Source of the DNA: Pseudomonadota bacterium
Lineage (GTDB): Bacteria; Desulfobacterota; Desulfobacteria; Desulfobacterales; RPRI01
Direction of reading: 5' to 3'
NCBI GenBank assembly: GCA_018901125.1
Contig: JAHIFE010000121.1
Span: 1-63,876 of the forward strand
Length of the DNA stretch: 63,876 nt
The translations under genes were made by a program, and so were the position numbers. Each line of letters begins with the position of its first letter. Within the stretch, counting starts at the first letter, position 1. Shown piece after piece: positions 7,240 to 33,500 of this stretch. The notes beneath the pieces are model-generated. The model was not told the origin of the DNA. It saw only the letters and a program-made list of their open reading frames with translations, and ran no database searches.

Positions 7240-7809
7240 CTAATGTGAGCTGTTTGGGGCTTTCTCGGTAAATAGCGATATACTCATGGAAATATCCAGA
7301 AGTTCAGGAAATGCAAATGATTTTTCTATCGACACTTTATTAATTTTAAGAAGCATGGGCACATTTTCTATTTTATAGAATATATTTACCAGTTCATTAA
7401 GGCTGACTTGTTCTAACATAACCTCAGCATTTTTTTCCTTCATCCGGCCTTCTATTTCTCTTTCCTCTAAATCTTTTATAGATTTTATCTTCCCTTTAAT
7501 CCCCAGCGGTAAGCACACTTCATCCAGGGCATGAATAATACTATCAATTTTTGATAATGATTTTTTGTTATCAATAGTGTTAATATGCACTTTCAGTTTA
7601 TTATATTCATTAGTTAAAGCATAAAACTCATTTAGTCTTTTATTTAGTACTGATAGTTCTTTTTCTGCTTTTTTATTATACAGATATAAAGGAATAAGGA
7701 GAAGGAAAAAGCATAGAAGAAGAATAAATATAACCTTACTACTGCGGGAATATTTTTTGGAGAAATTTTGTGATATATTTTCAGCGATATCTTTTAGGCT
7801 CATATTCAT
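7240..7809 (-). CDS. gspM: Type II secretion protein GspM-like
   Basis: A 189-residue bitopic protein with a short cytoplasmic N-terminus, one transmembrane helix near residues 24-44 (VIFILLLCFFLLLIPLYLY) and a periplasmic coiled-coil plus ferredoxin-like fold, as in GspM/PilO. It overlaps the upstream gspL by four bases. In the inner-membrane platform GspM binds GspL. Sequence conservation in this family is low, so the call depends on topology, length and operon position. Confidence 0.7.
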   Translation of the reverse strand: MNMSLKDIAENISQNFSKKYSRSSKVIFILLLCFFLLLIPLYLYNKKAEKELSVLNKRLNEFYALTNEYNKLKVHINTIDNKKSLSKIDSIIHALDEVCLPLGIKGKIKSIKDLEEREIEGRMKEKNAEVMLEQVSLNELVNIFYKIENVPMLLKINKVSIEKSFAFPELLDISMSISLFTEKAPNSSH

Positions 7810-8885
7810 TCAGCCCTTTCCTTGGCAACTACGGTAAAAAAGACCTTTCCGTCGGTTGCCGGCTTAATATCCGAAATCAAAACATCCGATAAGTATTGCT
7901 GAAACTTTGCCCTGGCATTGTCCACAGACTCCATTGAAGCCGCCTCAGCCTTCATTTTAATAAATCCTTTTTCAAACCTGATTTCATTATACTTAACACC
8001 CACTACCGGTTTTTGAGAAAGTTCAAGAATATAACGGAGGGGATTTACTCCCGTTAAAACATCACTCTTTTTTTCCATCTCTTTGATATGAGATTTCATC
8101 TGATATACTTCATCAATTATTTTCTTTTCATCGGGAAACAGCGCTGCATACATATTCCGCAAAGCCTTCTTTTGTGAAGAATTTTCTTTTTTTGTTATTA
8201 CCAGATTGAAAACGATATTTGCATTTATAAGAAATGCCAGTAAAAAAATCAGAACCGCTGTTTTTTTGAGAATATGCTTTCTTCTGGCAATATCTTTTGT
8301 GTATGCCAAAGGGCCGGATCTTAAATTGATGGTCGATATATATAACTCATCTGCTGCTGCACCGATTCTGTCGAATTCTTCCTCACTATCCTTACTTGCA
8401 AGGTGTTCGGCAAGATGGAGTGCTTCTTCACCGGCCTGAAGAATTTTACCAAGGGCAATCGATGTTATTATGCGCGGGTCAATATTTTTTAATGCAAGCT
8501 CTTCAAGCACAGCATCAAGGATTTTTCTGTCGGTATAAACCACAAGTATATCAAATCCACTGTCAGTCGCTTTAAGAACAACCGTATCAAAAATAATAAT
8601 AACTTCAGAATTATCTTCAATAAGACTTTCAAGTTCTAATGGTGTTGCTTTACCCAGTTTTTCCTTGTCGGAATATGGAAGATTAATTATCCTGAAATTT
8701 AACAGCTCAACTGGAATACTGAGATAAAATTCATTGATATCCTCAGGAATTTCATCAGATGAATACTCAAGTGTTTTCTCAAGTTCATTTTTCCCTGAAT
8801 TCTCTTTGAAAATATAAATAAGCGTTTTATCCTGCCATTGCTCATTTTCTCCGTGATGAATATCAATAAAGCCTGTTTTTTTCAT
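7806..8885 (-). CDS. gspL: Type II secretion protein GspL
   Basis: A protein of about 359 residues: a cytoplasmic actin-like N-terminal domain (MKKTGFIDIHHG onward), one transmembrane helix near residues 215-235 (TAVLIFLLAFLINANIVFNL) and a periplasmic ferredoxin-like domain. GspL recruits the ATPase GspE to the membrane and pairs with GspM. The start at 8885 is chosen over 8960 because residues upstream of it are encoded by intergenic repeat sequence and are not GspL-like. It overlaps gspM by four bases. Confidence 0.78.
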   Translation of the reverse strand: MKKTGFIDIHHGENEQWQDKTLIYIFKENSGKNELEKTLEYSSDEIPEDINEFYLSIPVELLNFRIINLPYSDKEKLGKATPLELESLIEDNSEVIIIFDTVVLKATDSGFDILVVYTDRKILDAVLEELALKNIDPRIITSIALGKILQAGEEALHLAEHLASKDSEEEFDRIGAAADELYISTINLRSGPLAYTKDIARRKHILKKTAVLIFLLAFLINANIVFNLVITKKENSSQKKALRNMYAALFPDEKKIIDEVYQMKSHIKEMEKKSDVLTGVNPLRYILELSQKPVVGVKYNEIRFEKGFIKMKAEAASMESVDNARAKFQQYLSDVLISDIKPATDGKVFFTVVAKERAE

Positions 8886-9056
8886 AATTATTCTTAACCG
8901 TCCTCTCGTCCTTTCTTTCCAACACACGCTTAACCGAATTCCGGTTTCTACTCGGCCCACCGAATCCCAGATCCCTTCTTCTTACCCTTGAACCTAAATT
9001 CCTTTCACCTTGAACCTAATCCGCTTTCACCTTGAGCCTGGGGCATTGATTCCTTG

Positions 9057-9998
9057 TCACCTTTCACGCCAGTATTTAGTTATAAACATTCCACCGTAAT
9101 TTTCCACAACACATTCTATGATTCTCTTAATTTTATCATCCTCTGCTAATGATGTTATCCTTAAGTTTACAGCTTTTACTACAATCATACCCATAAGGGA
9201 CTGCCCCAGAGAACCTTCAAATCCTGCGATTTTCACCAGATCACTTGCACGCTCGAGAGGTTCAAGATCCCGGTACTTTATAATTCTTTCTGCAAGCTGC
9301 TCCGTTATTTCGGCATTAAAGGCCAGAATTACCGGAAGAGATGCGCTATTAATATTTATAAGATGAGATGAAATGCCGTCCACACCATATACTGTAACAA
9401 AAGGCTTTAATGCTTCATATGTTCTAAAATCCACTCCATACATAAGTGTAAGCTCATCAATACTGTCCATATAGGCGTTTTTAGCACCCTTCTCAGATCC
9501 GCCCATCCTTGATTCACTGTCACTGTCTATCCAGTCGGCAACCCTGTATGCAATTTGTTCATCAAGCCCAATATTTTTCAAAAGCCTCTTAAATAAATCA
9601 ATTGAGGCCTCATTCGTTGTTCCATTAGGCCAGACAGTACTGTTTAAATTAAATTTTCCGTTCTCATCTTCCACACGTATAAGAACTTTACCGCCAGATC
9701 CATCAGCAGCTTCAGCAGCTTCGGCAAATATGTTTCCTAACGGAAGCTCATATTTGCCCGGATAGGTATATGCATAACGGGACTGATTATCCGAAATTAT
9801 TTTTTTGGCAATAGTAATTCCTGATTTGGCCGCCAGCGACAACTGACGGCTGACTCTCCAATTATTAAGACTTGCATTGGTTGAATATACCTCATGTATA
9901 AACTCAACAACCATTGTTGTCATAATCGCAAGGATCATTATTGTGAGTACAAGAGCCATTCCTTTATTAGAACTCATTAAGAGCTTTGAATAACTCAT
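9057..9998 (-). CDS. gspK: Minor pseudopilin GspK
   Basis: A 313-residue pseudopilin, the largest of the tip complex (GspI-J-K). After a short leader the NKGMALVLTIMILAIMTTMV helix is visible, with the GMALV form in place of GFTLIE; GspK characteristically lacks Glu at position 5. The body contains the helix-hairpin-helix-like segment (ININSASLPVILAFNAEITE) typical of GspK/ComEA-like parts and the VEDENGKFNLNS motif. It lies 22 bases after gspJ. Confidence 0.9.
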   Translation of the reverse strand: MSYSKLLMSSNKGMALVLTIMILAIMTTMVVEFIHEVYSTNASLNNWRVSRQLSLAAKSGITIAKKIISDNQSRYAYTYPGKYELPLGNIFAEAAEAADGSGGKVLIRVEDENGKFNLNSTVWPNGTTNEASIDLFKRLLKNIGLDEQIAYRVADWIDSDSESRMGGSEKGAKNAYMDSIDELTLMYGVDFRTYEALKPFVTVYGVDGISSHLININSASLPVILAFNAEITEQLAERIIKYRDLEPLERASDLVKIAGFEGSLGQSLMGMIVVKAVNLRITSLAEDDKIKRIIECVVENYGGMFITKYWRER

Positions 9999-10020
9999 AT
10001 TATTAACGCAGAACTCCCGT

Positions 10021-10740
10021 TTATAAGTACTTTCCTATTCTTGGTTTTGCTATATCGGAAATTATAAACAGCCTTCCCGCTTTATCCTTTATATCTTCGT
10101 TTGCAATAAAAAAAGTAACGGATATTTTTACCTCGTCCGGAACATCTTTTGTTAAGGTGCTATCCCAGGTTTTTACCCATTTATTTCCGTACCTGCACTC
10201 CAAAGCAAAAGATTCCATATCTTCCAGCATATCAACCTTATAATTACCGGATGGTTGAGACAAATCCGGTTGAGAAAAAGCAGATATTATTTCCTTGGTT
10301 ATGATCAGCCTGCCATCTCTTTCTTCCGCATTATAGTTTATTTTAGCAACACCATCTATTGAAGAAGAAAATGAAGTTATAGTCAGCCGGGAGGCCTGCC
10401 GACCAAAAAAATCCCTGTCTTCCGTACTGAATACTGTGAAACTGTTATCAGGAGAATAAAATACGGATTCTATCTCTCTTTTTAATATATCAACAAAAGC
10501 GCGGGATTCCTGAAGTTTAAGCAGTGTGCCATCCACGGCTGCAAGCGCTTTGTGAGATAGAAAAAAAGTATTATAAAGTGCGGTTAGAACCACAGACAAT
10601 ATAGCTATTGATATAAGAATTTCCAATAAGGTGAAACCATTAAGACTCGAATATCGAATGCCGAATAGCGAATAGCGAGGTTTGGTGTCAGCTTTATGCT
10701 GTTTATTGTATGATCTATTGTTTACCAACCCGGTAACCAT
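10021..10740 (-). CDS. gspJ: Minor pseudopilin GspJ
   Basis: A 239-residue pseudopilin with the prepilin peptidase site NG|FTLLEILISIAIL. The first Met gives an unusually long 35-residue leader, and residues about 22-32 (PRYSLFGIRYS) are encoded by the CGAATAGCGAATA-type intergenic repeat. No ATG, GTG or TTG closer to the cleavage site is obvious, so either the leader is long or translation starts at a non-standard codon. The body shows the GspJ pattern (SFALECRYGNKWVKTWDS near residue 175). It acts in the pseudopilus tip with GspI and GspK. Confidence 0.85.
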   Translation of the reverse strand: MVTGLVNNRSYNKQHKADTKPRYSLFGIRYSSLNGFTLLEILISIAILSVVLTALYNTFFLSHKALAAVDGTLLKLQESRAFVDILKREIESVFYSPDNSFTVFSTEDRDFFGRQASRLTITSFSSSIDGVAKINYNAEERDGRLIITKEIISAFSQPDLSQPSGNYKVDMLEDMESFALECRYGNKWVKTWDSTLTKDVPDEVKISVTFFIANEDIKDKAGRLFIISDIAKPRIGKYL

Positions 10741-10842
10741 TCTTTACTGATCCCTTCTTTTCCTCTTGAACCTTAACCCAGCCTATCCTTACTAACTTAC
10801 AAACTTACGAGCTTATGAGCTGTCTTTAATCTTGAGACACAT

Positions 10843-10867
10843 GGGCGGGTTATGAATCCGCCCCTAC
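10843..10867. repeat. GGGCGGGTT-ATGAA-CCGCCC palindromic repeat
   Basis: A 25-bp near-palindrome (GCGGGTT/AATCCGC arms) followed by CCTAC, between gspJ and gspI. Near-identical copies lie at 10,935-10,957 and 18,658-18,682. Confidence 0.75.
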
Positions 10868-10934
10868 TCCTGAATCTGAACCCCGATCCCTGACACCTTC
10901 TTCCCATAGCCCTTGATTTTGTTTTTCCACCTAT

Positions 10935-10957
10935 GCGGGTTATGAACCCGCCCCTAC
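10935..10957. repeat. GCGGGTTATGAACCCGCCCC palindromic repeat, copy 2
   Basis: Second copy of the same palindrome, 68 bases downstream of the first, in the 246-base gspJ-gspI gap. The rest of that gap is CCTGATCC- and TTACNAACTTA-type words; no gene is seen in it. Confidence 0.75.
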
Positions 10958-10986
10958 TGCTGAATCTGCACCCCGGAACCTGATCC

Positions 10987-11325
10987 CTAATTCCCGCTTT
11001 TCTCTATAATTTCCGAAAGCATTACTTTCTCTTTCCCGTCAGTTATTGTAACTCCGATATTCAACATACCAGGAAACGTTGAATCTGAAACCCTTGTTTC
11101 ATATTGAATGTCTGAATTAGGTTCGGGGAATTTTCCACTACTTTCGGAAGGATTCTTTTCCATCTCATATATTTTCTCATGAGCTAATATGTCGATATTA
11201 GTTAAAACAATTTGCTTCTCAGCAATACCCAGATGATAGTTCAGTGAAGAAATCAGAGTAAAAAGAAGCCCTCCCAGAATTGCGAGACTTATCATGATTT
11301 CAAGGAGTGTAAAACCTTTATTCAT
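10987..11325 (-). CDS. gspI: Minor pseudopilin GspI
   Basis: A 112-residue pseudopilin. The leader is only MNKG, followed by FTLLEIMISLAILGGLLFTL, the standard prepilin peptidase site and hydrophobic helix. The C-terminal half fits GspI (YETRVSDSTFPGMLNIGVTI). GspI nucleates the tip complex with GspJ and GspK. It starts two bases after the gspH stop codon, so the two are probably co-translated. Confidence 0.9.
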   Translation of the reverse strand: MNKGFTLLEIMISLAILGGLLFTLISSLNYHLGIAEKQIVLTNIDILAHEKIYEMEKNPSESSGKFPEPNSDIQYETRVSDSTFPGMLNIGVTITDGKEKVMLSEIIEKSGN

Positions 11326-11327
11326 TA

Positions 11328-11783
11328 TTAAGCCTTATCCTGTTTTACTATTCGTATTCGACCACTTAGAGAATTTGAACTGACAGCAATATTATAATCA
11401 TCACTCTTTAAATTAATTACAAAGCTTTCCGAAACACCCATCGGAGTATAAAATATATTTACTTCTCCATCGGAAACAACGCCTTTGGTTTGCAAGATAA
11501 TATTCGACAGATTATTGATCCTCTCTGTTTTTTCACCCTCGGGACCTTTGTAACTGAGGGTTTTCTGGCCAAGATCAAATTTAACCACATAAGTCTCTTT
11601 CATAGTTACTGCACTATCATTAAGATAACGCAAAACCGACGCTAAGGATGCCGCTTCGGATTTCAACTTGCCGCTTTCACGAAAGCCAATATTGGGAAAA
11701 GATACCATAAGCATTATAGAGATGATAAAAATCACAACAATCAATTCAATAAGAGTAAAACCCCTATTCTCTGCCTGATTCAC
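11328..11783 (-). CDS. gspH: Minor pseudopilin GspH
   Basis: A 151-residue pseudopilin with leader MNQAENRG followed by FTLIELIVVIFIISIMLMV. The globular part shows the GspH/FimT beta pattern (YVVKFDLGQKTLSY near residue 60-75). It connects the major pseudopilin GspG to the tip complex. Confidence 0.9.
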   Translation of the reverse strand: MNQAENRGFTLIELIVVIFIISIMLMVSFPNIGFRESGKLKSEAASLASVLRYLNDSAVTMKETYVVKFDLGQKTLSYKGPEGEKTERINNLSNIILQTKGVVSDGEVNIFYTPMGVSESFVINLKSDDYNIAVSSNSLSGRIRIVKQDKA

Positions 11784-11932
11784 TTATCCCCCCAAAAAAT
11801 CGAATGTCGAATAGCGAATATCGAGAATCGATATACACTGATAGCTGTCAGATCTGTTGCTCAAGAACTCATGAGCTATATCTTTTCTTACCTCTTATCC
11901 CTGATCCCTGACACCCGATCCCCGACTCCTGC

Positions 11933-12526
11933 TTATTCCATATCACCCCAATTGTTAATATCTGCATCTTTATCTTCTCCGCCCTCTTTGCCATCGCCTC
12001 CAAAACTCATGATATCACAATCTCCCTTTATGCCGGGAGATATATATATGTAAGGATTCCCCCACGGATCAAGCGGTATCTTTTTTTGTTCCAGATACCC
12101 GCCCGCCCTGTATTTCTTGGGTATTCGCCCTGTCTCAGGTTTTGTTGTAAGAGCATCGAGACCCTGTTGAGTATCCGGATAAAAGCCATTGTCAATTTTA
12201 TACAGTTTCAGGGCGGTCTCAAAATTTTTTATCTGAACTTTTGCTTCTGTAATTCGGGCATCGTCGGTTCTGCCGATGATCTTAGGTGCCACAATTGCAA
12301 CTAAAAGGCTTAAAATAAAAACTACAACAACAAGTTCAATTAAAGTAAAACCTCTTGAACCAGTTTCAAAACTTCCCATTTTGGCCAACCTCTGCGTTTG
12401 GCGAAAAATTTTAATCCTCGAAATACTCCATGTATTCCTGCGGTTAATATTTTCACCCGCCTTGACCTTGACCAAACTGAAACGTTTTGAAAGTGGCTCT
12501 CCTGTTAAAATATATTTTTTTTGCAT
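11933..12526 (-). CDS. gspG: Major pseudopilin GspG with element-encoded leader insertion
   Basis: The major pseudopilin of the type II pseudopilus. The mature part is normal: RG|FTLIELVVVVFILSLL, then the ALKLYKIDNGFYPDTQQGL motif and the calcium-site region with LDPWGNPYIY. The leader is not normal. From the Met at 12,526 it is 59 residues long, of which 49 are encoded by a 143-bp copy of the dispersed 142-bp element (12,357-12,499) plus a 4-bp target duplication. Removing 147 bp restores MQKKYILTRG before FTLIE. The insertion is in frame only because this copy has one extra A (run at 12,404-12,408). An alternative start is the ATG at 12,379, which lies in the element behind an AGAGG and gives a 10-residue leader ending in SRG. 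Confidence 0.9.
   Translation of the reverse strand: MQKKYILTGEPLSKRFSLVKVKAGENINRRNTWSISRIKIFRQTQRLAKMGSFETGSRGFTLIELVVVVFILSLLVAIVAPKIIGRTDDARITEAKVQIKNFETALKLYKIDNGFYPDTQQGLDALTTKPETGRIPKKYRAGGYLEQKKIPLDPWGNPYIYISPGIKGDCDIMSFGGDGKEGGEDKDADINNWGDME
12357..12499 (+). mobile_element. 142-bp MITE-like element, copy A (143 bp), inside gspG
   Basis: Same ends as the other copies (here GAACCAGTTTCAAAAC at the left instead of GAGCC; GAAAGTGGCTC at the right). One extra A makes it 143 bp. Flanks TCTT (12,353-12,356) and TCCT (12,500-12,503) are probably a decayed 4-bp target duplication. Several further point differences mark it as the most diverged full copy. Confidence 0.88.
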
Positions 12527-12603
12527 TTCTCACCCCCACCCGTATATCGAATGCCGAATAGTGTATAGCAAAGTATCTTATTAGCTGTCCTGTCTCTTTT
12601 GCT

Positions 12604-12688
12604 TAAGAACTTACCAACTCATCAACTGAACCTTGATCCTTGAACCTTGAACCTTGAACCTTTAACCTTGATCCTTGAATCTTGAACC
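12604..12688. repeat. CTTGAACC/CTTGATCC word tract between gspF and gspG
   Basis: An ACTTACCAACTCATCAACT word is followed by about eight copies of CTTGAACCTT-type heptamers, filling most of the space between the gspF stop and the gspG start. CGAATGCCGAATAG words lie at about 12,546-12,563. No gene or terminator is seen. Confidence 0.75.
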
Positions 12689-13864
12689 TCATTTTACCAG
12701 TTGATTCATCTGAAATATTGGAAGTAAAACTGCAAGAACAATAATACAAACCACAAAACCCATTAAAAGTATCATTATAGGCTCAAAAAGAGACAGGGCT
12801 CTTTCGATTTTTCTGCTGAATTGCTCTTCATATGATGAGGCTGCCCTGTTTAATGTCTGAGCAAGATTGCCGCTTTTCTCACCGGTTGATATAAGTCGTA
12901 ATATAATCGGCGGGAATCCGGGCAGGGAGGAGGACATCTGCTGTCCGGCTGCTACCTTTTCTACTGAATTGAGGACAGATATTTCCAGCTTTCTGTTGCC
13001 GATGGATTTTGCGGAAAGTTTGAGCGCTTTTAATAAAGGAATGCCCCCACCAAGAAGAGCGCCCATGGTTCTTGCAAATCTCGCGTAATATAAGCACTGA
13101 ATTACATTGCCAGGCAGCTTTAGAATAATAGCATCAACTTGCGTTCTGTGCTTAAAAAACATCTTTCTTAATGAAACGGCTACCGCCACGCATACTGCAA
13201 TTATTGCCCACCAGTATTTCGAAACAATATTGCTCACCGCTACAATTGCTACAGTAAGAAAAGGCAACGCCCCCCCTGTTTCTGTAAATATTCTTACGAT
13301 TTTCGGCATTACAAAAGAAAAAAGAAAGAAGAGAATCAGTGCGCTTACTCCCGCCATTAAAAGAGGGTACACAGTTGCAGATCGTATTTTTGCTTTTATG
13401 GAAGCCTGTGTTTCGAGAAAATCGGCAATCTTTACAAGAACCATATCCAAAGAACCGCTTGCCTCACCGGCCTGAACCATATTAACATAATACTCAGGGA
13501 AAACATGGCCATAGCTTTCCAATGCTTTATGCAGGCTCATACCGGAAGAAACACTTTCCCGTATTTGAGTCAGCAGATCCCCATAAAATCCCGGGTATTC
13601 ATCAGAAAGCGATTGCAGAGCATCCATCAACTGAACTCCTGATGCAAGAAGCATCGAAAGATTTCTTGTAATATCCGGCAAAAAAGTTTCATCTTTTTTT
13701 TGAAATATACTTCTTCCCGACTTTTTGGTTACTTCCAGAATGTCTGTGGGAGAGATCAGTTTAGCCTTTAAAGCAGAAATGGCGTCAGTATGCCCCTGGG
13801 CCTCTATTGTGCCTTTTGTTTCGGCTCCTTTTGCATTATACCCTTTGAATTTATATTTCGGCAT
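12689..13864 (-). CDS. gspF: Type II secretion inner-membrane protein GspF
   Basis: A 391-residue polytopic platform protein with two T2SSF domains. It begins MPKYKFKGYNAKGAETKGTI, and each domain has the amphipathic bundle followed by a transmembrane segment; the GEASGSLDMVL motif (domain 1) and its repeat GEKSGNLAQTL (domain 2) are both visible. The C-terminal helix FEPIMILLMGFVVCIIVLAV is typical. It converts GspE motor movement into pseudopilus growth. It overlaps gspE by 14 bases. Confidence 0.95.
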   Translation of the reverse strand: MPKYKFKGYNAKGAETKGTIEAQGHTDAISALKAKLISPTDILEVTKKSGRSIFQKKDETFLPDITRNLSMLLASGVQLMDALQSLSDEYPGFYGDLLTQIRESVSSGMSLHKALESYGHVFPEYYVNMVQAGEASGSLDMVLVKIADFLETQASIKAKIRSATVYPLLMAGVSALILFFLFSFVMPKIVRIFTETGGALPFLTVAIVAVSNIVSKYWWAIIAVCVAVAVSLRKMFFKHRTQVDAIILKLPGNVIQCLYYARFARTMGALLGGGIPLLKALKLSAKSIGNRKLEISVLNSVEKVAAGQQMSSSLPGFPPIILRLISTGEKSGNLAQTLNRAASSYEEQFSRKIERALSLFEPIMILLMGFVVCIIVLAVLLPIFQMNQLVK

Positions 13865-15365
13865 AATCTTTCTGCGTTACTCTCAAGATTTCCTGCAATG
13901 ATGTAATGCCACTTATAACCTTCTCAATGCCTTCTGCATATAGGGTTCTCATCCCATTAGAAATAGCGTAATCCTTGATAGCCTGCGCATCAACCCGCTG
14001 CGAAATCATCTGTCTTAATTTGTTGTCTATAGGAAGTATTTCAAAGATTCCCGTTCTTCCGAGATAACCGCTTTCCCTGCATTCCCTGCATCCTTTCCCT
14101 CTGTATAATTCCTTTACCGGGAAAGGGAAATACGCTTTTTCCGAAGATGCAGGCTCAAACGCCTCCCTGCAATATGGGCAAATAGTCCTGACAAGACGCT
14201 GTGCAACAACAGCTACAAGGGAAGAAGCAACAAGAAAAGGTTCCATCCCCATATCGGCAAGCCTTACAAGCGAGGATACCGCGTCATTGGTATGAAGCGT
14301 GCTCAAAACAAGATGCCCTGTCAGGGAAGCTTGAATTGCAATTTCAGCGGTTTCGAAATCACGTATTTCACCGACCATTATAATATCAGGATCCTGCCTT
14401 AATATTGATCTTAATCCGGATGCGAATGTAAGACCTATTTTAGGATTTACCTGCACCTGCCCTATACCCTTTAATTGGTACTCCACAGGATCTTCTACGG
14501 TGATGATGTTTCTTCCTTCTGTATGAATTCTGTTTAATGCCGCATAAAGGGTTGTAGTTTTACCGCTTCCTGTGGGGCCGGTAACAAGGATAATACCGCT
14601 TGTACTCTCGAGCAGCTTTTCAGCTTTCTCCCCATCTTTTTTATCAAGACCTACTTCATAAAGACCGATAAGCCCCTGTTTTCTATTAAGCAGCCTCAGT
14701 ACTGCTCTCTCTCCGAAAGAAGTAGGAATAATAGATACTCTGAGATCGATATCCTGCCCTCCGATAAGAAGCCTTATGCGGCCATCCTGCGGAAGCCTCT
14801 TTTCGGCAATATCGAGATTAGCCATAATCTTTACCCTGCTTATCAGGGCTTCCTGTATTATTTTTGGAGGATGCAGAACCTTGTGCAGTATTCCGTCAAT
14901 TCTCATTCTCACTTCAAGATCTTTTTCGTAAGGCTCTATATGAATATCGCTTGCTCTTTCCTTGAATGCCTGCTGGAAAAGAGCATTAAGGAGCCGTATG
15001 ATAGGGGCATCTTCCGTAAGCTCCAGGATATCTCGCGGTTTTTCAAACTCCGTAGCCACGGAAGACAGATCTTCTGCGGCCATATTGTCCATAACTTCTT
15101 CGGCATTACTTATCTGACCGTAATATTTACTGATAGCTTCAGTAATAATGCCTGGTTCCGCTTTTAAAGGATTAGCCTTTACTCCAAGTTTTCTCGCCAG
15201 CTCAGCAGCAGCCAAAAGCCCATTATTACCCGAGACTGCTGCAATCAATGAATTATCTTCAATTCTAAGCGGCATGATGAGATTGTTTTTTGAATAGAAA
15301 TATTGAACCTTCCTCAGCAGAGCATCATCTACATCATTATCTTTTATATGCTTTATAGTTTCCAT
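13851..15365 (-). CDS. gspE: Type II secretion ATPase GspE
   Basis: A 504-residue cytoplasmic ATPase. Seen: N-terminal MshEN/GspE-N domain (1-150), the Arg-rich linker, Walker A GPTGSGKTTTLY, Asp box VEDPVEYQ, Walker B DIIMVGEIRD, His box LSTLHTNDA and the tetra-cysteine zinc site CPYC ... CREC near residues 395-430. All catalytic elements are intact. It powers pseudopilus assembly through GspF and GspL. Confidence 0.96.
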   Translation of the reverse strand: METIKHIKDNDVDDALLRKVQYFYSKNNLIMPLRIEDNSLIAAVSGNNGLLAAAELARKLGVKANPLKAEPGIITEAISKYYGQISNAEEVMDNMAAEDLSSVATEFEKPRDILELTEDAPIIRLLNALFQQAFKERASDIHIEPYEKDLEVRMRIDGILHKVLHPPKIIQEALISRVKIMANLDIAEKRLPQDGRIRLLIGGQDIDLRVSIIPTSFGERAVLRLLNRKQGLIGLYEVGLDKKDGEKAEKLLESTSGIILVTGPTGSGKTTTLYAALNRIHTEGRNIITVEDPVEYQLKGIGQVQVNPKIGLTFASGLRSILRQDPDIIMVGEIRDFETAEIAIQASLTGHLVLSTLHTNDAVSSLVRLADMGMEPFLVASSLVAVVAQRLVRTICPYCREAFEPASSEKAYFPFPVKELYRGKGCRECRESGYLGRTGIFEILPIDNKLRQMISQRVDAQAIKDYAISNGMRTLYAEGIEKVISGITSLQEILRVTQKDYAEI

Positions 15366-15451
15366 TCAGATTTCCATTATCGAATAGCGAAGTACGCTGA
15401 GCGGTATTTGGCTTATCAGCTAATTAACTTTCTTCTCCCTGAACTTTTCTC

Positions 15452-17602
15452 TTATCTTTCACCTGACATCCTGATTCTCGGAACAGGCTCAACCTTTTGC
15501 ACTTCAGGAATTGATGAGAAAATATTTATCGCTTTCTTATAATTTATGCTTTTATCAAGCTTAAGATGATAAACTCCGCTTTGAATAATTTTAAATTCTG
15601 ATATCTTTTGTCCTGACAGTATCTTTCGAATAGCCTCAGCAGTAACACCCTCTTTGAATGCAACTATTAATTCATCCTCCACATACTGTTTTTCTTTATG
15701 CACATAATCGTTTAGTTTATTATGAGTAATCATGGAAAGATCGGAAAAATCATCAATAATATATGGGGTAAGAAATACCAATAGATTTTTCTTTGCCCTT
15801 GAAGTACTTCTGTATTTAAACAGCCAGCCCAAAACAGGAATATCTCCTAAAAGAGGAATCTTTGTGATCGACTCTTCGTCCCTTTCCTCTATGAGTCCAC
15901 CAATCACAACCGTCTGTTTATCCTTTACCACTACCGATGTTTTCGTAGATCTTTTTGTCATAGTAGGGCCTATGGATGTTATAACATTTTCAGAACCGGC
16001 CTTCTGCGCCGAAATTTCCTGATATATATCAAGTTTTACATATTCCCCTTCGTTTATCTGTGGTGTAATCTTTAAAAGTATACCAACATCTTTACGTTCT
16101 ATGGAAGTCAGAACGGTTGAGGTGGTTGTGACATCCCTTTCTCTGTTTAAGATCAAAGGGATATTTTCACCTACCAGTATTTCAGCTTCCATATTATCTG
16201 AAGTAAGAATCTGAGGCGTCGAGAGGACATTTACAGCATCCTTGAAATCACTCATGCTAAATAGTGCGCTAATTCCCGGAATTTTAACATCAGAAGTTCC
16301 TCCGGGCACAAAAGTCTGCGGAACTGTGAAGTAATTGGACATGCCGCCCAATGTAAGACCTGTCATACCGGAAAGTATGGAATCAACTGTAGTAGCATCA
16401 ACCGTTCCGACTCCCCCCACAAAAATAGGCTCGCCATTCCTTGTAACCGCAGCGCGCCATTTTGATCCCAGCTCAAGCAGTTTATCAATGGAAACTTCGG
16501 CAATCATTGCCTCCACAAAAACCTGCTTTCTTCTCTTGTCAAGCTGTTTTATGATTCGCTGCAGATTCTGGTAATCCGCCGGAGAAGCAACAACTACCAG
16601 TGCGTTTGACGCCTTATCGGCAGTAATAGATATACCTCCGGCAGTCTCAAACACAGACATGACAGGAACATCCGGTATCTGCTGCTTTGCCTGACCGGCT
16701 TTTACAAGATCTTGCAGTACTTTTGCAAGTTCAACAGCATCTGCGTTTTCCATGAAATAAACATTTATCATTCCCTGGGTCTCAGGAGAATGCACATCAA
16801 GCAGGGAAATAAATGAACGCATTAAATCTTTTTTAGATTTATCCCCAAACAGAAGAACTGCGTTTAGCCTCTGGTCTGCAACAGCCTTTCCGGCACCGCC
16901 CGGCAAAGCCTGTGCTAATGCTCCCCGCTGCCACCGGCTCACATTATCATTTATTGTCTTGGCAACGGTTTCGGCACTGGCATATTTAAGATATACAATT
17001 TCCGGTATCTCTTCCATAGACGGCTGGTCTATTGACTCTATAATGGAGGCTATCTTTCTCACATTAACCCCCGAATCTATAATCAGCAACATATTACCGG
17101 GCCCGAATACGGATGCGAAACCGTCTTTTGACACCATTGGCAAAATAAAATTAAGCGCTTCGGTGGAAGAAGCATTTTTTAAGGTTATAAGCCTGGCGAC
17201 ATAACTTTCATTGGTTGGAATCCTTTCTCCCGATACTTCCATTCCACCATGTTTTGCATCCGAAGTAGGAATAATCTTATAAACACCTGTTATAGTGGGT
17301 ATAACAGTAAAGCCTTTTAATGCAAGTACTGAGGTAAAAAGACTAAAAGCATCATTTACACTAATTTTTGATGGAGCAATAATTGTAATTTTACCAACGA
17401 AATTATCATCAAAAATAAAATTCTTCCCGGTAATTTCACTCACAAACTTCGCAACAACAGGAAGGTCGATATCCACAAAATTAAAGCTTATTTTCTCCGT
17501 ATCTTTATCTTTTGAAGCCGCAAAAGCATTTGGCGCAATATACGGAGTGAATATAAAAGATACAGCCAATAACAGAATCCAAATATATTTTTTACCGATC
17601 AT
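15452..17602 (-). CDS. gspD: Secretin GspD with unusual C-terminal domain
   Basis: A 716-residue outer-membrane secretin. A signal peptide (about 1-29, cleavage after AFA) is followed by the N0 domain (ISFNFVDIDLPVVAKFV), N1-N3 domains and the secretin core (about 385-625), which contains the VPLLGDIPVLGWLF-like signature as KIPLLGDIPVLGWLF and ends LLVFLTPYII. Instead of the short S-domain, about 77 residues follow (640-716): they start with DELIVAFKEGVTAEAI and end with IFSSIPEVQKVEP, the pattern of fervidolysin/subtilisin N-terminal prodomains. That assignment is by pattern only. Confidence 0.93.
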   Translation of the reverse strand: MIGKKYIWILLLAVSFIFTPYIAPNAFAASKDKDTEKISFNFVDIDLPVVAKFVSEITGKNFIFDDNFVGKITIIAPSKISVNDAFSLFTSVLALKGFTVIPTITGVYKIIPTSDAKHGGMEVSGERIPTNESYVARLITLKNASSTEALNFILPMVSKDGFASVFGPGNMLLIIDSGVNVRKIASIIESIDQPSMEEIPEIVYLKYASAETVAKTINDNVSRWQRGALAQALPGGAGKAVADQRLNAVLLFGDKSKKDLMRSFISLLDVHSPETQGMINVYFMENADAVELAKVLQDLVKAGQAKQQIPDVPVMSVFETAGGISITADKASNALVVVASPADYQNLQRIIKQLDKRRKQVFVEAMIAEVSIDKLLELGSKWRAAVTRNGEPIFVGGVGTVDATTVDSILSGMTGLTLGGMSNYFTVPQTFVPGGTSDVKIPGISALFSMSDFKDAVNVLSTPQILTSDNMEAEILVGENIPLILNRERDVTTTSTVLTSIERKDVGILLKITPQINEGEYVKLDIYQEISAQKAGSENVITSIGPTMTKRSTKTSVVVKDKQTVVIGGLIEERDEESITKIPLLGDIPVLGWLFKYRSTSRAKKNLLVFLTPYIIDDFSDLSMITHNKLNDYVHKEKQYVEDELIVAFKEGVTAEAIRKILSGQKISEFKIIQSGVYHLKLDKSINYKKAINIFSSIPEVQKVEPVPRIRMSGER

Positions 17603-17619
17603 GCTCGCCTGCCTTATTT

Positions 17620-18510
17620 TTACCTGATTTGATAGGTCATTGTTGTTCTTTTACCGGATCTTATGATATCAAGCCGCACCCTGTTCGTCCCCTTTAAGGC
17701 TGTAAATGCCCTGAGGGCATTTTCGGGGTTTGTAATGTCGTAATCGTTTACTCTCATAAGAATGTCATCGTTTTTCAATCCAAGGAGATCATGTATTCCG
17801 CCATTCTTAACTTCTCTTAAAACAAACCCCTCTTGCCGGTTATTTTTCATATTAGGAATTAATCTTGCCTTGGAAAGGAACTGGCCGGGATTATCCAGCG
17901 CTTCCTTGACCATATTCTGATTAATAACATACTCCCCTTTATCAAGTTTCTTTATATCATAAGGCATTTCATTATTTAAGGGAGCTGCATTCTGATCCAT
18001 AGCCAAAGCTTCCACTATTGGAATTTCCGAGACGATATCTTCATTTTCTATATAGACTTTATTCTTATCCACTTGTTTAAGCAAACCGGTTCCCGGTATA
18101 AATTCACCAGACTTAAATATCTCCTGTTTGCCGTCACTGCCAACAAATACGGCATAACTGAACATATCATCACCTGAAATAGTACCAATCAATTTCATGT
18201 CTGAGGCTGGAAGCGACTTGTCGGTAGAGCCGCCCAAGGGTTTTAAAGAGCCGGCTGTAAAGCCAAAAGGATTATTAATAAGAATGGATTCATATTCCAT
18301 CAGGCCCTTTTTTACATATTCCGGGCCCAAAGCCTGAAAAGGAGCCGGAGTTTTTTTGTCTTTTGAATCATAACCTCTTGTAATTAAACCCCGGACGCAA
18401 ATCAGCACAAAAACAATCAGTACAATTAAAATCATCGTATTAAGAATGCTTAATACGTCAAGATGCCGGACCTTCCGGCCTATTGACTCCATTGCTTTTC
18501 TGTAAAACAT
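17620..18510 (-). CDS. gspC: Type II secretion protein GspC
   Basis: A bitopic protein of about 296 residues that links the inner-membrane platform to the secretin. One transmembrane helix (ILNTMILIVLIVFVLICV) is followed by the HR domain (about 95-175, LIGTISGDDMFSYAVFVG) and a C-terminal PDZ domain (LREVKNGGIHDLLGLKNDDI, then RVNDYDITNPENAL). The ATG at 18,510 is preferred because GGGGA precedes it; an in-frame ATG at 18,531 has no ribosome site. It is the first gene of the operon. Confidence 0.9.
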   Translation of the reverse strand: MFYRKAMESIGRKVRHLDVLSILNTMILIVLIVFVLICVRGLITRGYDSKDKKTPAPFQALGPEYVKKGLMEYESILINNPFGFTAGSLKPLGGSTDKSLPASDMKLIGTISGDDMFSYAVFVGSDGKQEIFKSGEFIPGTGLLKQVDKNKVYIENEDIVSEIPIVEALAMDQNAAPLNNEMPYDIKKLDKGEYVINQNMVKEALDNPGQFLSKARLIPNMKNNRQEGFVLREVKNGGIHDLLGLKNDDILMRVNDYDITNPENALRAFTALKGTNRVRLDIIRSGKRTTMTYQIR

Positions 18511-18657
18511 ATTTTTCCCCAGGGTAAGCATACTAAATAATTCTCTATAACTTTATCATGTTATCTAAATAAGTCAATAATTATATCGAATAGCGAAATA
18601 CGAATAGCGAATAGCGTTTTCCTCACCATAAAATTTATACAGACAAGACTACAGACC

Positions 18658-24175: not shown

Positions 24176-24236
24176 GAGCCAATTGCAAAACATCCCATGT
24201 TAGCTGATCTCTGCGTTGGGCAAAAATTTTAATCGA
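24176..24236 (+). mobile_element. Truncated copy G of the 142-bp element (left half only)
   Basis: GAGCCAATTGCAAAACATCCC up to AAAATTTTAATCG matches the first 60 or so bases of the element, then the match stops inside the VanZ coding region. Its TTA (24,229-24,231) provides the stop codon of the minus-strand VanZ gene, so the truncation probably also trimmed or replaced the end of that gene. Confidence 0.8.
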
Positions 24237-30526: not shown

Positions 30527-33500
30527 CTATCGGCTTTCTACGCTTTTAATCAGCTCATTAGCGATATTAGGACTTTCAATGCGCATGATGCTTTCCTGAG
30601 CGCTGCCGTAACTCAAAAGATTGATACTTCCATACCATACGATTTTTTGATCCATGATTGCAAATTTTTGATGAATATTGGATTTAAGGACAATACTTAT
30701 GTCATTTCTTTTCAACAGATCCAGTATCCTTCTTAAGACATTCCGATCTTTTTCTTTAAAATCCTCAACCGGTCTGGTTATTACAATTACCCTGATTTTT
30801 TTATCAAACGCAATTTTAAGATATTGTATCATTTGCAAAGTGCGTCTTTCCCTGACAAACGGGCTCACTATTATAATTTCTTTTTTCACACAGTTCATAT
30901 CATTGCCAAAAACAGGTAAAAAATTATCCTTGTCAAAAATAATATCCAATGATGCGGATTCGATGTCCTCGCCTTTTGCTTTATATCCCATTAAAGCATA
31001 ACCGGAAAGCCGTTTTTGATACATTCTTTCGAGCATTTTTACATGGATATCTACATAATCATAGATCATCACCTCCCTTTTATTTTCATACAGGCGATGA
31101 AGCCTTCCGGCATATTGCTGCAGAGTGCCCTTCCATGATATAGGCATGGCTAAGAATAACGTATCAAGACGCGGTTCGTCAAAACCTTCGCCGATAAAAG
31201 AACCGGTTGCTACTATAATTATATTCTTATCTGCAGAAATATCGGCAATAGACTTAAAGATCTCCCTGGTCGTCTTTGTGCCCATTCCTCCCATCAGGGT
31301 AATAGCATCCGGAATTTCTTCTCTTATTTTTTTAGAAAGCATTTCAACGTGAGCCGTTCTTAAAGATAGAATAATACAGTTTCTGCCTTGCCTATAGTTG
31401 TTTAGCACGTCTTCAACAATTTGTTGATTCCGAAAATCATTATCAACAATTCCCGAATATAATTCCTGAATAGAAATATCTTTTCCATTACTATCCAAAG
31501 GCATTCTCATAGATGTAAATCGTGGGATGATATAATGATCAAAAGGTCTTTTCTCCGCCTGTATTTTAGGATTATCGCGATATCGTATCGGGCCGCAATG
31601 CATAAGAAGTATCGGGTGATGCCCATCTTTTCGTGTAGGTGTTGCCGTAAGGCCATAAACATATTTAGCATCCGTTGTTTTTAAAATATTTTCATAGTTG
31701 AAAGCCGGAGCATGATGACACTCATCGGCAATGATCATACCATAGTTTTTGACACAATCCTTGACTTCTCCCAGTCGGCTTAATGATTGCATAACAGCGA
31801 TATCCACAATACCGCTCATGGTATTTCTTCCCGCACCCAGCTGACCGATCATACTTATTTTTTTCTTTCTGCCCTTTTTCTTGCCGGTTATATTACTCAT
31901 TTCCGGCACGGTTTCATTTATGAGCCAATTGCAAAACGTCCCATTTTGGCCGATCTCTGCGTTGGGCTCAAATTTTAATCCTCGAAATACTCCATGTATT
32001 CCTGTGGTTAAAATTTTCGCCCGCCTTGACCTTGACCAAACTGAAACGTTTTGAAACTGGCTCTTATGATTAAAAATTGTGCTAATCTATCATTCCATTG
32101 TGACAGCAAACTGATCTTATCCACAAGTATTAGCGTATTTACTTTTCTTTCGGCTATCAACTTAATGGCCACAACTGTTTTTCCAAAGGCTGTTGTACCG
32201 GACAGTATTCCTGTATCATGCTGCAGAAGTTGCTCAAGGGCAAGGGATTGCTCATCTCGCAGTTGACCGTTGAATTCTACAGATATTGTTTTGCCGTGAT
32301 TAGTTTTATCAATAAAATGAACATCAACTCCGAATTGTTCAAATTCGGAAATAAGATCAATTTCACATCCTCTTGGTAAGCACAGATAATTTGTTGTTTC
32401 ATCTGCACAAGAAATCACTCTTGGATGTCCATAGGTTGATAATCGCATAGCCTGTTGCCTGAAAAACATTGGATTCTTAAAAGAAGCTAACCTCTTTAAA
32501 TGATTCAAAGCCCTTTGTGAGATAGCAGCTTTTGGAACAAACAGCATATTTGCTTTAACGATTTCGATTTGTTTCGGGAAATCAGCTTGTTGCAGGTTGG
32601 CTTTTTGTGCTTCCCAAGGTTTTTGCGTTTCCTCTTCATCAATTTTTAACATACCCAGTTCATGTCCACGGCAAAGCTTTGAAATGAGATTTTCAATTGT
32701 ATTTTCAGAAATCTTTTGAATTGATGACAAAAATGCCCATTGATCGGAATAGGATTCAAACCTTTCATTTACAAATTCGCTATTGTTGTTTCCCCTTGCC
32801 ACCTTCTGGAATGGAAGAGCTATCAGATTTCCAAAACCGCCTTTGGGCATTGTGTCCTGGTTGGGAAACAATCTATCATATGATTTGAAACGGATTTCAT
32901 ACCTTTTACTCATGGAATAGGTCAGAAGGGATGTGCCGAACTTTCTGGCCATGGCAGCCGACAACCGATTTTCGAAGAAGAGCCATACATGTCCGCCATT
33001 ACCGGATTGTGATCGCTCCACAGCTATATGAATATTAAACTCGGTACAAACCTCTCTTAAAATCGAGATATCCTTTTGCCAATCTGCTTCATCAAAATCC
33101 ATTGCCAGAAAGTGGCATGTTTCATCAGGTAGCATTGGATAGATGCCTGCAACGATATTTCCTCTTAAATGATCTTCTATGACATGTTCATCCAAATTGG
33201 CATATGATTTATTGACGCATTTATCACACGAAACCTTTGGCTTGCCGCATAACCCTGCCTGCCATTGATTCAGGCAAACCGGCGAATATCCAGATGTTGC
33301 CTTCTTTTTGTTTTCCCACCGGGTAGCATAAACATCATCACGGCCTTTAAAAAGTAACATGAAGAGTTTGATTTTGGAAATAGAATCAGACGCGTTGTTT
33401 ACATTAAAGAATGAGGTTTCGTCATGTAATTTGTCGTCGGGTATAGTATTTTCTTCTGAGACATATTTTGTAATATTTACTTTGGCGTGCTCGAAATCGG

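Follow-up and report, generated by a model that had tools for sequence, protein, structure and literature searches.

A MITE in the leader of the pseudopilin gene gspG as a likely source of its translation start

In the stretch of DNA analysed here (the window, 63,876 nucleotides), the leader of the type II secretion pseudopilin gene gspG is interrupted by a copy of a short palindromic repeat, and this raises the question of where translation of GspG begins. The initial annotation had described a mobile element of 143 bp, one extra A included, that leaves gspG in frame with its original ATG. It took this as a hint of selection for translation through the element and named a start supplied by the element itself as the alternative.

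The gspG leader and its empty alleles

GspG matches TIGR01710 with 170.9 bits (cut-off 88.85) and its prepilin motif matches TIGR02532 with 26.9 (cut-off 16.3). Among the six operon proteins scanned, only those of gspG and gspE pass NCBIfam equivalog cut-offs; the names given to the remaining genes are putative, from their order in the operon and from weaker matches. In named genomes, most of the best matches to gspG carry the label Thermodesulfovibrionales or Nitrospirae, which makes Nitrospirota the probable affiliation of the host. GspG and GspH resemble known type II pseudopilins in their G/FTLIE cleavage motif (the slash marks the cut), T2SSG domain and operon order, and differ from them in a leader built from transposon sequence. 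The features of the locus are as follows.

7806-18531, minus strand: type II secretion operon, gspC to gspL, open frames (open reading frames and profile scan)
11328-11783, minus strand: gspH, without the MITE in the window; its orthologue in the related genome G005 has the MITE in its leader (operon comparison)
11933-12526, minus strand: gspG open frame, 197 aa (open reading frame; TIGR01710)
12353-12356, no strand: target duplication TCTT on the gene-body side (flank comparison)
12357-12499, minus strand: MITE copy of 143 bp in the gspG leader (consensus comparison)
12377-12379, minus strand: element-supplied ATG, giving MGSFETGSRG/FTLIE (sequence and open frame reading)
12389-12393, minus strand: AGAGG before the inner ATG (copy comparison and predicted pairing)
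12404-12408, plus strand: A5 run (A4 in the consensus), bringing the original ATG into the gspG frame (copy comparison)
12500-12503, no strand: target duplication TCCT on the start-codon side, 3/4 match (flank comparison)
12524-12526, minus strand: original gspG ATG, still there (open reading frame and relatives)
12529-12537, minus strand: strong Shine-Dalgarno-like sequence GGGGGTGAG of the original start (predicted pairing)

The element, its length and its extra A were thus all found as first described, and FTLIE begins at residue 60 of the open frame, which leaves a leader of 59 residues from the original ATG with the frame kept. The 4-bp duplication reported for this site is present and imperfect, with one mismatch between its two copies. 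Cleavage is expected between 12350 and 12349.

The proposed comparison with gspG of close relatives yielded element-free alleles in two genomes of the same genus. In G005, the closest relative (87% over GspG residues 57-193), the leader is empty (ATGCAAAAAAAATATATTTCGATAAATGGTTTTACT, that is MQKKYISING/FTLIEL), as it is in G006 (MQKHFIPIRG/FTLLEL); the leader in G008 is also MITE-free yet different (MKKKPVFNKIAGQNFDRG/FTLLE). The old leader that had been reconstructed for the window, MQKKYILTRG, is therefore right in kind, judged by the empty leaders of G005 and G006, and its end would read LTRG or LTGG according to which copy of the duplication is kept. Because the same-genus relatives carry empty leaders, the insertion is derived and followed the split from G005, from which the window's genome (G000) is separated by a gspG dS of 0.65. 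Based on this comparison of sequences, the gspG leader is real, derived and transposon-made.

A family of palindromic 142-bp repeats

The host assembly is a 4.45 Mb draft of 241 contigs, in which the window is contig 175. A 39-base core of the repeat, allowing up to 3 mismatches, has 213 matches in these 4.45 Mb (94 forward and 119 reverse), and a reversed control of the core has none. We compiled 68 full copies with flanks out of the 213 from the window, the best-scoring DNA matches, about 100 listed core matches and protein-level matches, a way of picking that biases the sample to well conserved copies. The dispersed, palindromic consensus is 142 bp long (63/68 copies), has terminal inverted repeats (GAGCCAGTTTCAAAAC / GTTTTGAAAGTGGCTC) and matches itself on the opposite strand at approximately 67-69%. 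A 4-bp target duplication is exact in 57/68 copies. It is flanked by C at -5 in 37, by G at +5 in 36, by both in 11 and by at least one of them in 62 of the 68, a C/G pattern that the gspG site (C/TCTT...TCCT/G) fits, with its one duplication mismatch. Short, dispersed, near-identical copies with terminal inverted repeats and a target duplication mark the family as a MITE, and the element is too short to encode a transposase.

No autonomous partner with the same ends was recognised in two pattern searches with the terminal inverted repeats, of which some resulting places were inspected. Besides scattered ends, the searches returned a 43-bp palindrome (C10:16218-16260) that consists of two MITE ends face to face, the middle being absent. 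No transposase was recognised among the open reading frames around one of the places returned (C167:8798). In G009, two MITE copies 1.4 kb apart flank what is presumably a glutamate-dehydrogenase-like gene, with no transposase between them. A scan of window positions 12200-12700 against Rfam at E-values up to 1 gave no match. Elsewhere in the window, positions 24176-24234 hold a partial 59-bp copy that is more diverged (82% identity). Contigs C39, C56, C57, C106, C145, C172 and C186, among others, begin or end within the MITE, which therefore probably breaks the assembly.

The gspG copy has 7 differences and is tied among the six most diverged of the 68. Its substitutions at 12389 and 12399 are absent from the other 67 sampled copies; the former changes AGAGA to AGAGG and is private to this copy (1/68). 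A length of 143 bp is not unique to gspG, since it occurs in three of the 68; the other two came via the protein-level search. Among the 43 copies chosen at the DNA level (the window and DNA-pattern loci), 40 are 142 bp, one is 139 bp, one is 137 bp and only the gspG copy is 143 bp. That the extra A is a trait common to a subfamily was ruled out, since the exact string beginning GAAAAATTTTAATCC is found a single time in the genome, within gspG.

Sampled copies lie mostly outside recognisable genes. Sixty-six of the 68 had at least 250 bp on either side, and for these the filled or empty site was tested for open reading frames. One of at least 120 aa crosses the site in 10/66 cases, and only two of these were recognised as real genes, gspG and a primase-helicase gene. 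The remaining eight were judged by eye from strand, start position and neighbouring frames; L144, the only one of them run against Pfam, had no match. The primase-helicase gene, of the TOTE type (30530 to at least 33498, minus strand), is split out of frame by a more diverged copy at 31922-32063 in the window; by Pfam, AEP-TOTE and part of ResIII lie on one side, and what remains of ResIII lies on the other together with Helicase_C and PLDc_2. gspG is accordingly the one recognised in-frame gene insertion among the 66 copies, a frequency that ruled out a family adapted to coding insertion in the manner of the palindromic elements of Rickettsia (RPEs). The likeness to RPEs drawn in the initial annotation holds only loosely, in view of where most copies lie and of the gene that another copy breaks.

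The start codon of gspG

We consider it reasonably likely that a MITE moved into the 10-residue gspG leader after the split from G005 and that GspG is now made mainly from the element-supplied start. By this account, a non-autonomous MITE transposed into the leader. The sequence shows that its end toward the gene carries an AGAG-type ribosome-binding sequence, an ATG and codons for MGxFETG. Followed by the target duplication and the retained Gly(-1), these form a new 10-residue leader, MGSFETGSRG/FTLIE. The main product would begin at the inner ATG (12379) and prepilin peptidase would cut as before. Ribosomes from the old ATG, in frame via the extra A, would unwind the MITE hairpin in which the inner start is hidden, and their product would be a minor long-leader GspG instead of an out-of-frame one. 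Pseudopilin leaders may tolerate insertions because little but the cleavage site appears to be constrained there.

Leader lengths in relatives favour the inner start. From the nearest in-frame ATG they range from 2 to 37 residues with a median of 11, and the 10 residues of the inner-ATG leader are the mode (19/108). These figures cover 108 of 109 loci (80 from named genomes and 29 others, some possibly from the same organism); L120, with no in-frame ATG and no alignable sequence where the site is expected, was left out.

Further support comes from the adjacent gene in the sister species. The gspH leader of G005 holds a 142-bp copy of the same MITE family in the same orientation (L234:7068-7209, minus strand), whereas gspH is MITE-free in G000 and G006. 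The copy is flanked as C/TAAG...TAGC/G, a duplication matching at 2/4 positions, and differs from the consensus at 10 bases; against the gspG copy it shows 16 base differences and one gap. The probable old start is still visible upstream (MRILKIGKCKPK; compare MRTSKAGIYSKG/FTLLE in G006), and its frame meets a stop inside the MITE. In the gspH frame, a stop lies 11 codons ahead of the inner ATG, and therefore all in-frame ATG, GTG and TTG codons of G005 gspH lie within the MITE. The options are a TTG or an ATG that gives MGRFETGYSG/FTLIEL, of which the inner ATG appears the better. GspH of G005 is nevertheless still conserved: it is 79.6% identical to that of G000, with a dN/dS of 0.18 and 8 lineage-unique residue changes in G005 against 6 in G000. 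We strongly infer that a MITE end can serve as start and leader in nature. The two insertions appear to be independent, and G005 gspH is the strongest support for a start supplied by the element. At 84 distinct sites among the loci examined, the inner ATG opens at least 100 aa in only three: gspG, G005 gspH and one that is antisense to a longer open reading frame without a Pfam match.

Other observations bear on both gspG starts. The change at 12389 moves the predicted pairing of the inner start with an assumed anti-Shine-Dalgarno tail from -3.1 to -7.0 kcal/mol, and the original start is predicted to pair more strongly (-14.3 kcal/mol). The gain amounts to one mutation and counts as a limit on the inner-start reading. 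In the predicted fold, the mean unpaired fraction is 0.28 for the inner AUG region and 0.40 for the old start region; as both are largely paired, the fold favours neither strongly. The extra A would be purposeless if the inner start alone were used, which is also a point against the inner start.

A read-through fusion, in which the main GspG starts at the old ATG (12526), its 59-residue leader is cleaved and the extra A was selected to keep the frame, seems to us rather unlikely. The frame is open and stop-free, and the old ATG keeps its strong Shine-Dalgarno sequence. A MITE with its duplication usually adds 146 bp and is out of frame; here the extra A brings the original ATG into frame, and lengths that restore the frame are rare: 1/42 other DNA-chosen copies (137 bp; none of 143 bp) and 3/67 others in the whole sample (two of 143 bp and one of 137 bp). 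These counts put the chance of a frame-keeping copy very roughly at 2 to 5%, which is suggestive only. Long repeat leaders may also be translated elsewhere, because both in-frame ATGs of the gspG locus L068 precede its repeat-derived leader stretch, with no later GTG or TTG. However, a leader of 59 residues exceeds that from the furthest in-frame ATG in any of the 108 relatives (55; a few GTG or TTG codons are located beyond it), and G005 gspH could not be produced by reading through its MITE. Selection for translation through the element, as first suggested, is hinted at by the rarity of such lengths, while the element-supplied start is better supported by G005 gspH and by leader lengths in relatives.

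That the insertion disabled a gspG now dying, its frame open by chance, is very unlikely. In its favour, the insertion is absent from the sister species, but GspG is 87.5% identical between G000 and G005 with a dN/dS of 0.09 and no surplus of lineage-unique residue changes in G000 (5 vs 5). We computed dN/dS for gspG, gspH, gspI and gspJ, gspF and gspK being lost to an anchor pattern that missed an orthologue; in comparisons with G006, several of the values approach saturation. The adjacent gsp genes have open frames whose alignment to G005 and G006 covers most of their length. Moreover, the insertion is probably not brand new, because the copy is among the most diverged and its duplication is already mismatched. 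An assembly or sequencing artefact, with a wrong copy collapsed into gspG or a wrong count of A, is the least credible explanation, for although the assembly is a draft with many contigs ending in the MITE, cross-mapping would pull the copy toward the consensus and not give it two private substitutions, and its flanks agree with the empty site of G005.

If the inner start is used, gspG is a natural case in which a transposon apparently supplies a translation start and cleavable leader while the mature secretion protein is unaltered. Together with gspH of the sister species, the survival of such insertions makes sequence tolerance of cleaved leaders a testable idea. It is also a warning for annotation, as choosing the first ATG may misplace the start of genes of this kind.

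Known elements and pseudopilin leaders as landing sites

This MITE and the RPEs are both short palindromic repeats of about 150 bp found in frame in a conserved gene (PMC10969869). According to that review, nearly half of the RPEs of R. conorii lie inside open reading frames as possible fusions (PMC10969869), a location rarely seen for the present family. The gspG MITE also ends at the cleavage site, so that its residues would be removed. Bacterial MITEs such as QMITE2 in Coxiella are likewise non-autonomous repeats with terminal inverted repeats and duplications, and in-frame fusions are reported to be not unusual (PMC10969869, PMC5896051). Fusions and small open reading frames are what the passages cited describe for known MITEs; the gspG and gspH copies would add a start with a cleavable leader and parallel use in adjacent genes of two sister species. 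Fusions of MITEs with host genes are thus already known, and the gspG case is most likely one of a MITE end that supplies a start.

By a uniform estimate, made post hoc and ignoring target preference, about 0.006 MITE copies would be expected in the four 30-nt leaders of the gsp operon. Two leader insertions in two species therefore suggest tolerance or targeting. Tentatively, pseudopilin leaders may in general be places where small mobile repeats land. The MITE end would in this reading be a movable cassette of start and leader (ribosome site, ATG and MGxFETG) that twice independently replaced the leader of a prepilin gene, in neighbouring genes of two sister species, with unrelated repeats acting similarly in GspG of other lineages; we find this conceivable but hold it with some reserve. 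In the literature searched, which covered matching papers in part, nothing was found on small repeats in pseudopilin leaders.

A wider occurrence of repeats in these leaders is so far a lead. In two relatives, chosen by inspection because their leaders looked unusual and long, the GspG leader is largely composed of dispersed repeats. With some places counted on both strands, the leader DNA of L068 (L068:1276-1378) has 61 matches and that of L075 (L075:3035-3135) has 34 matches in its own genome, query included. In the window, a short repeat of the ATATTCG/CGAAT type lies within the gspJ leader and has four other matches in the genome, three of them within the gsp operon. Repeats of this type were placed as follows.

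10640-10740, minus strand: ATATTCG/CGAAT-type repeat in the gspJ leader
11796-11825, 12538-12569 and 18586-18616: ATATTCG/CGAAT-type repeats located 5' of gspH, gspG and gspC, respectively
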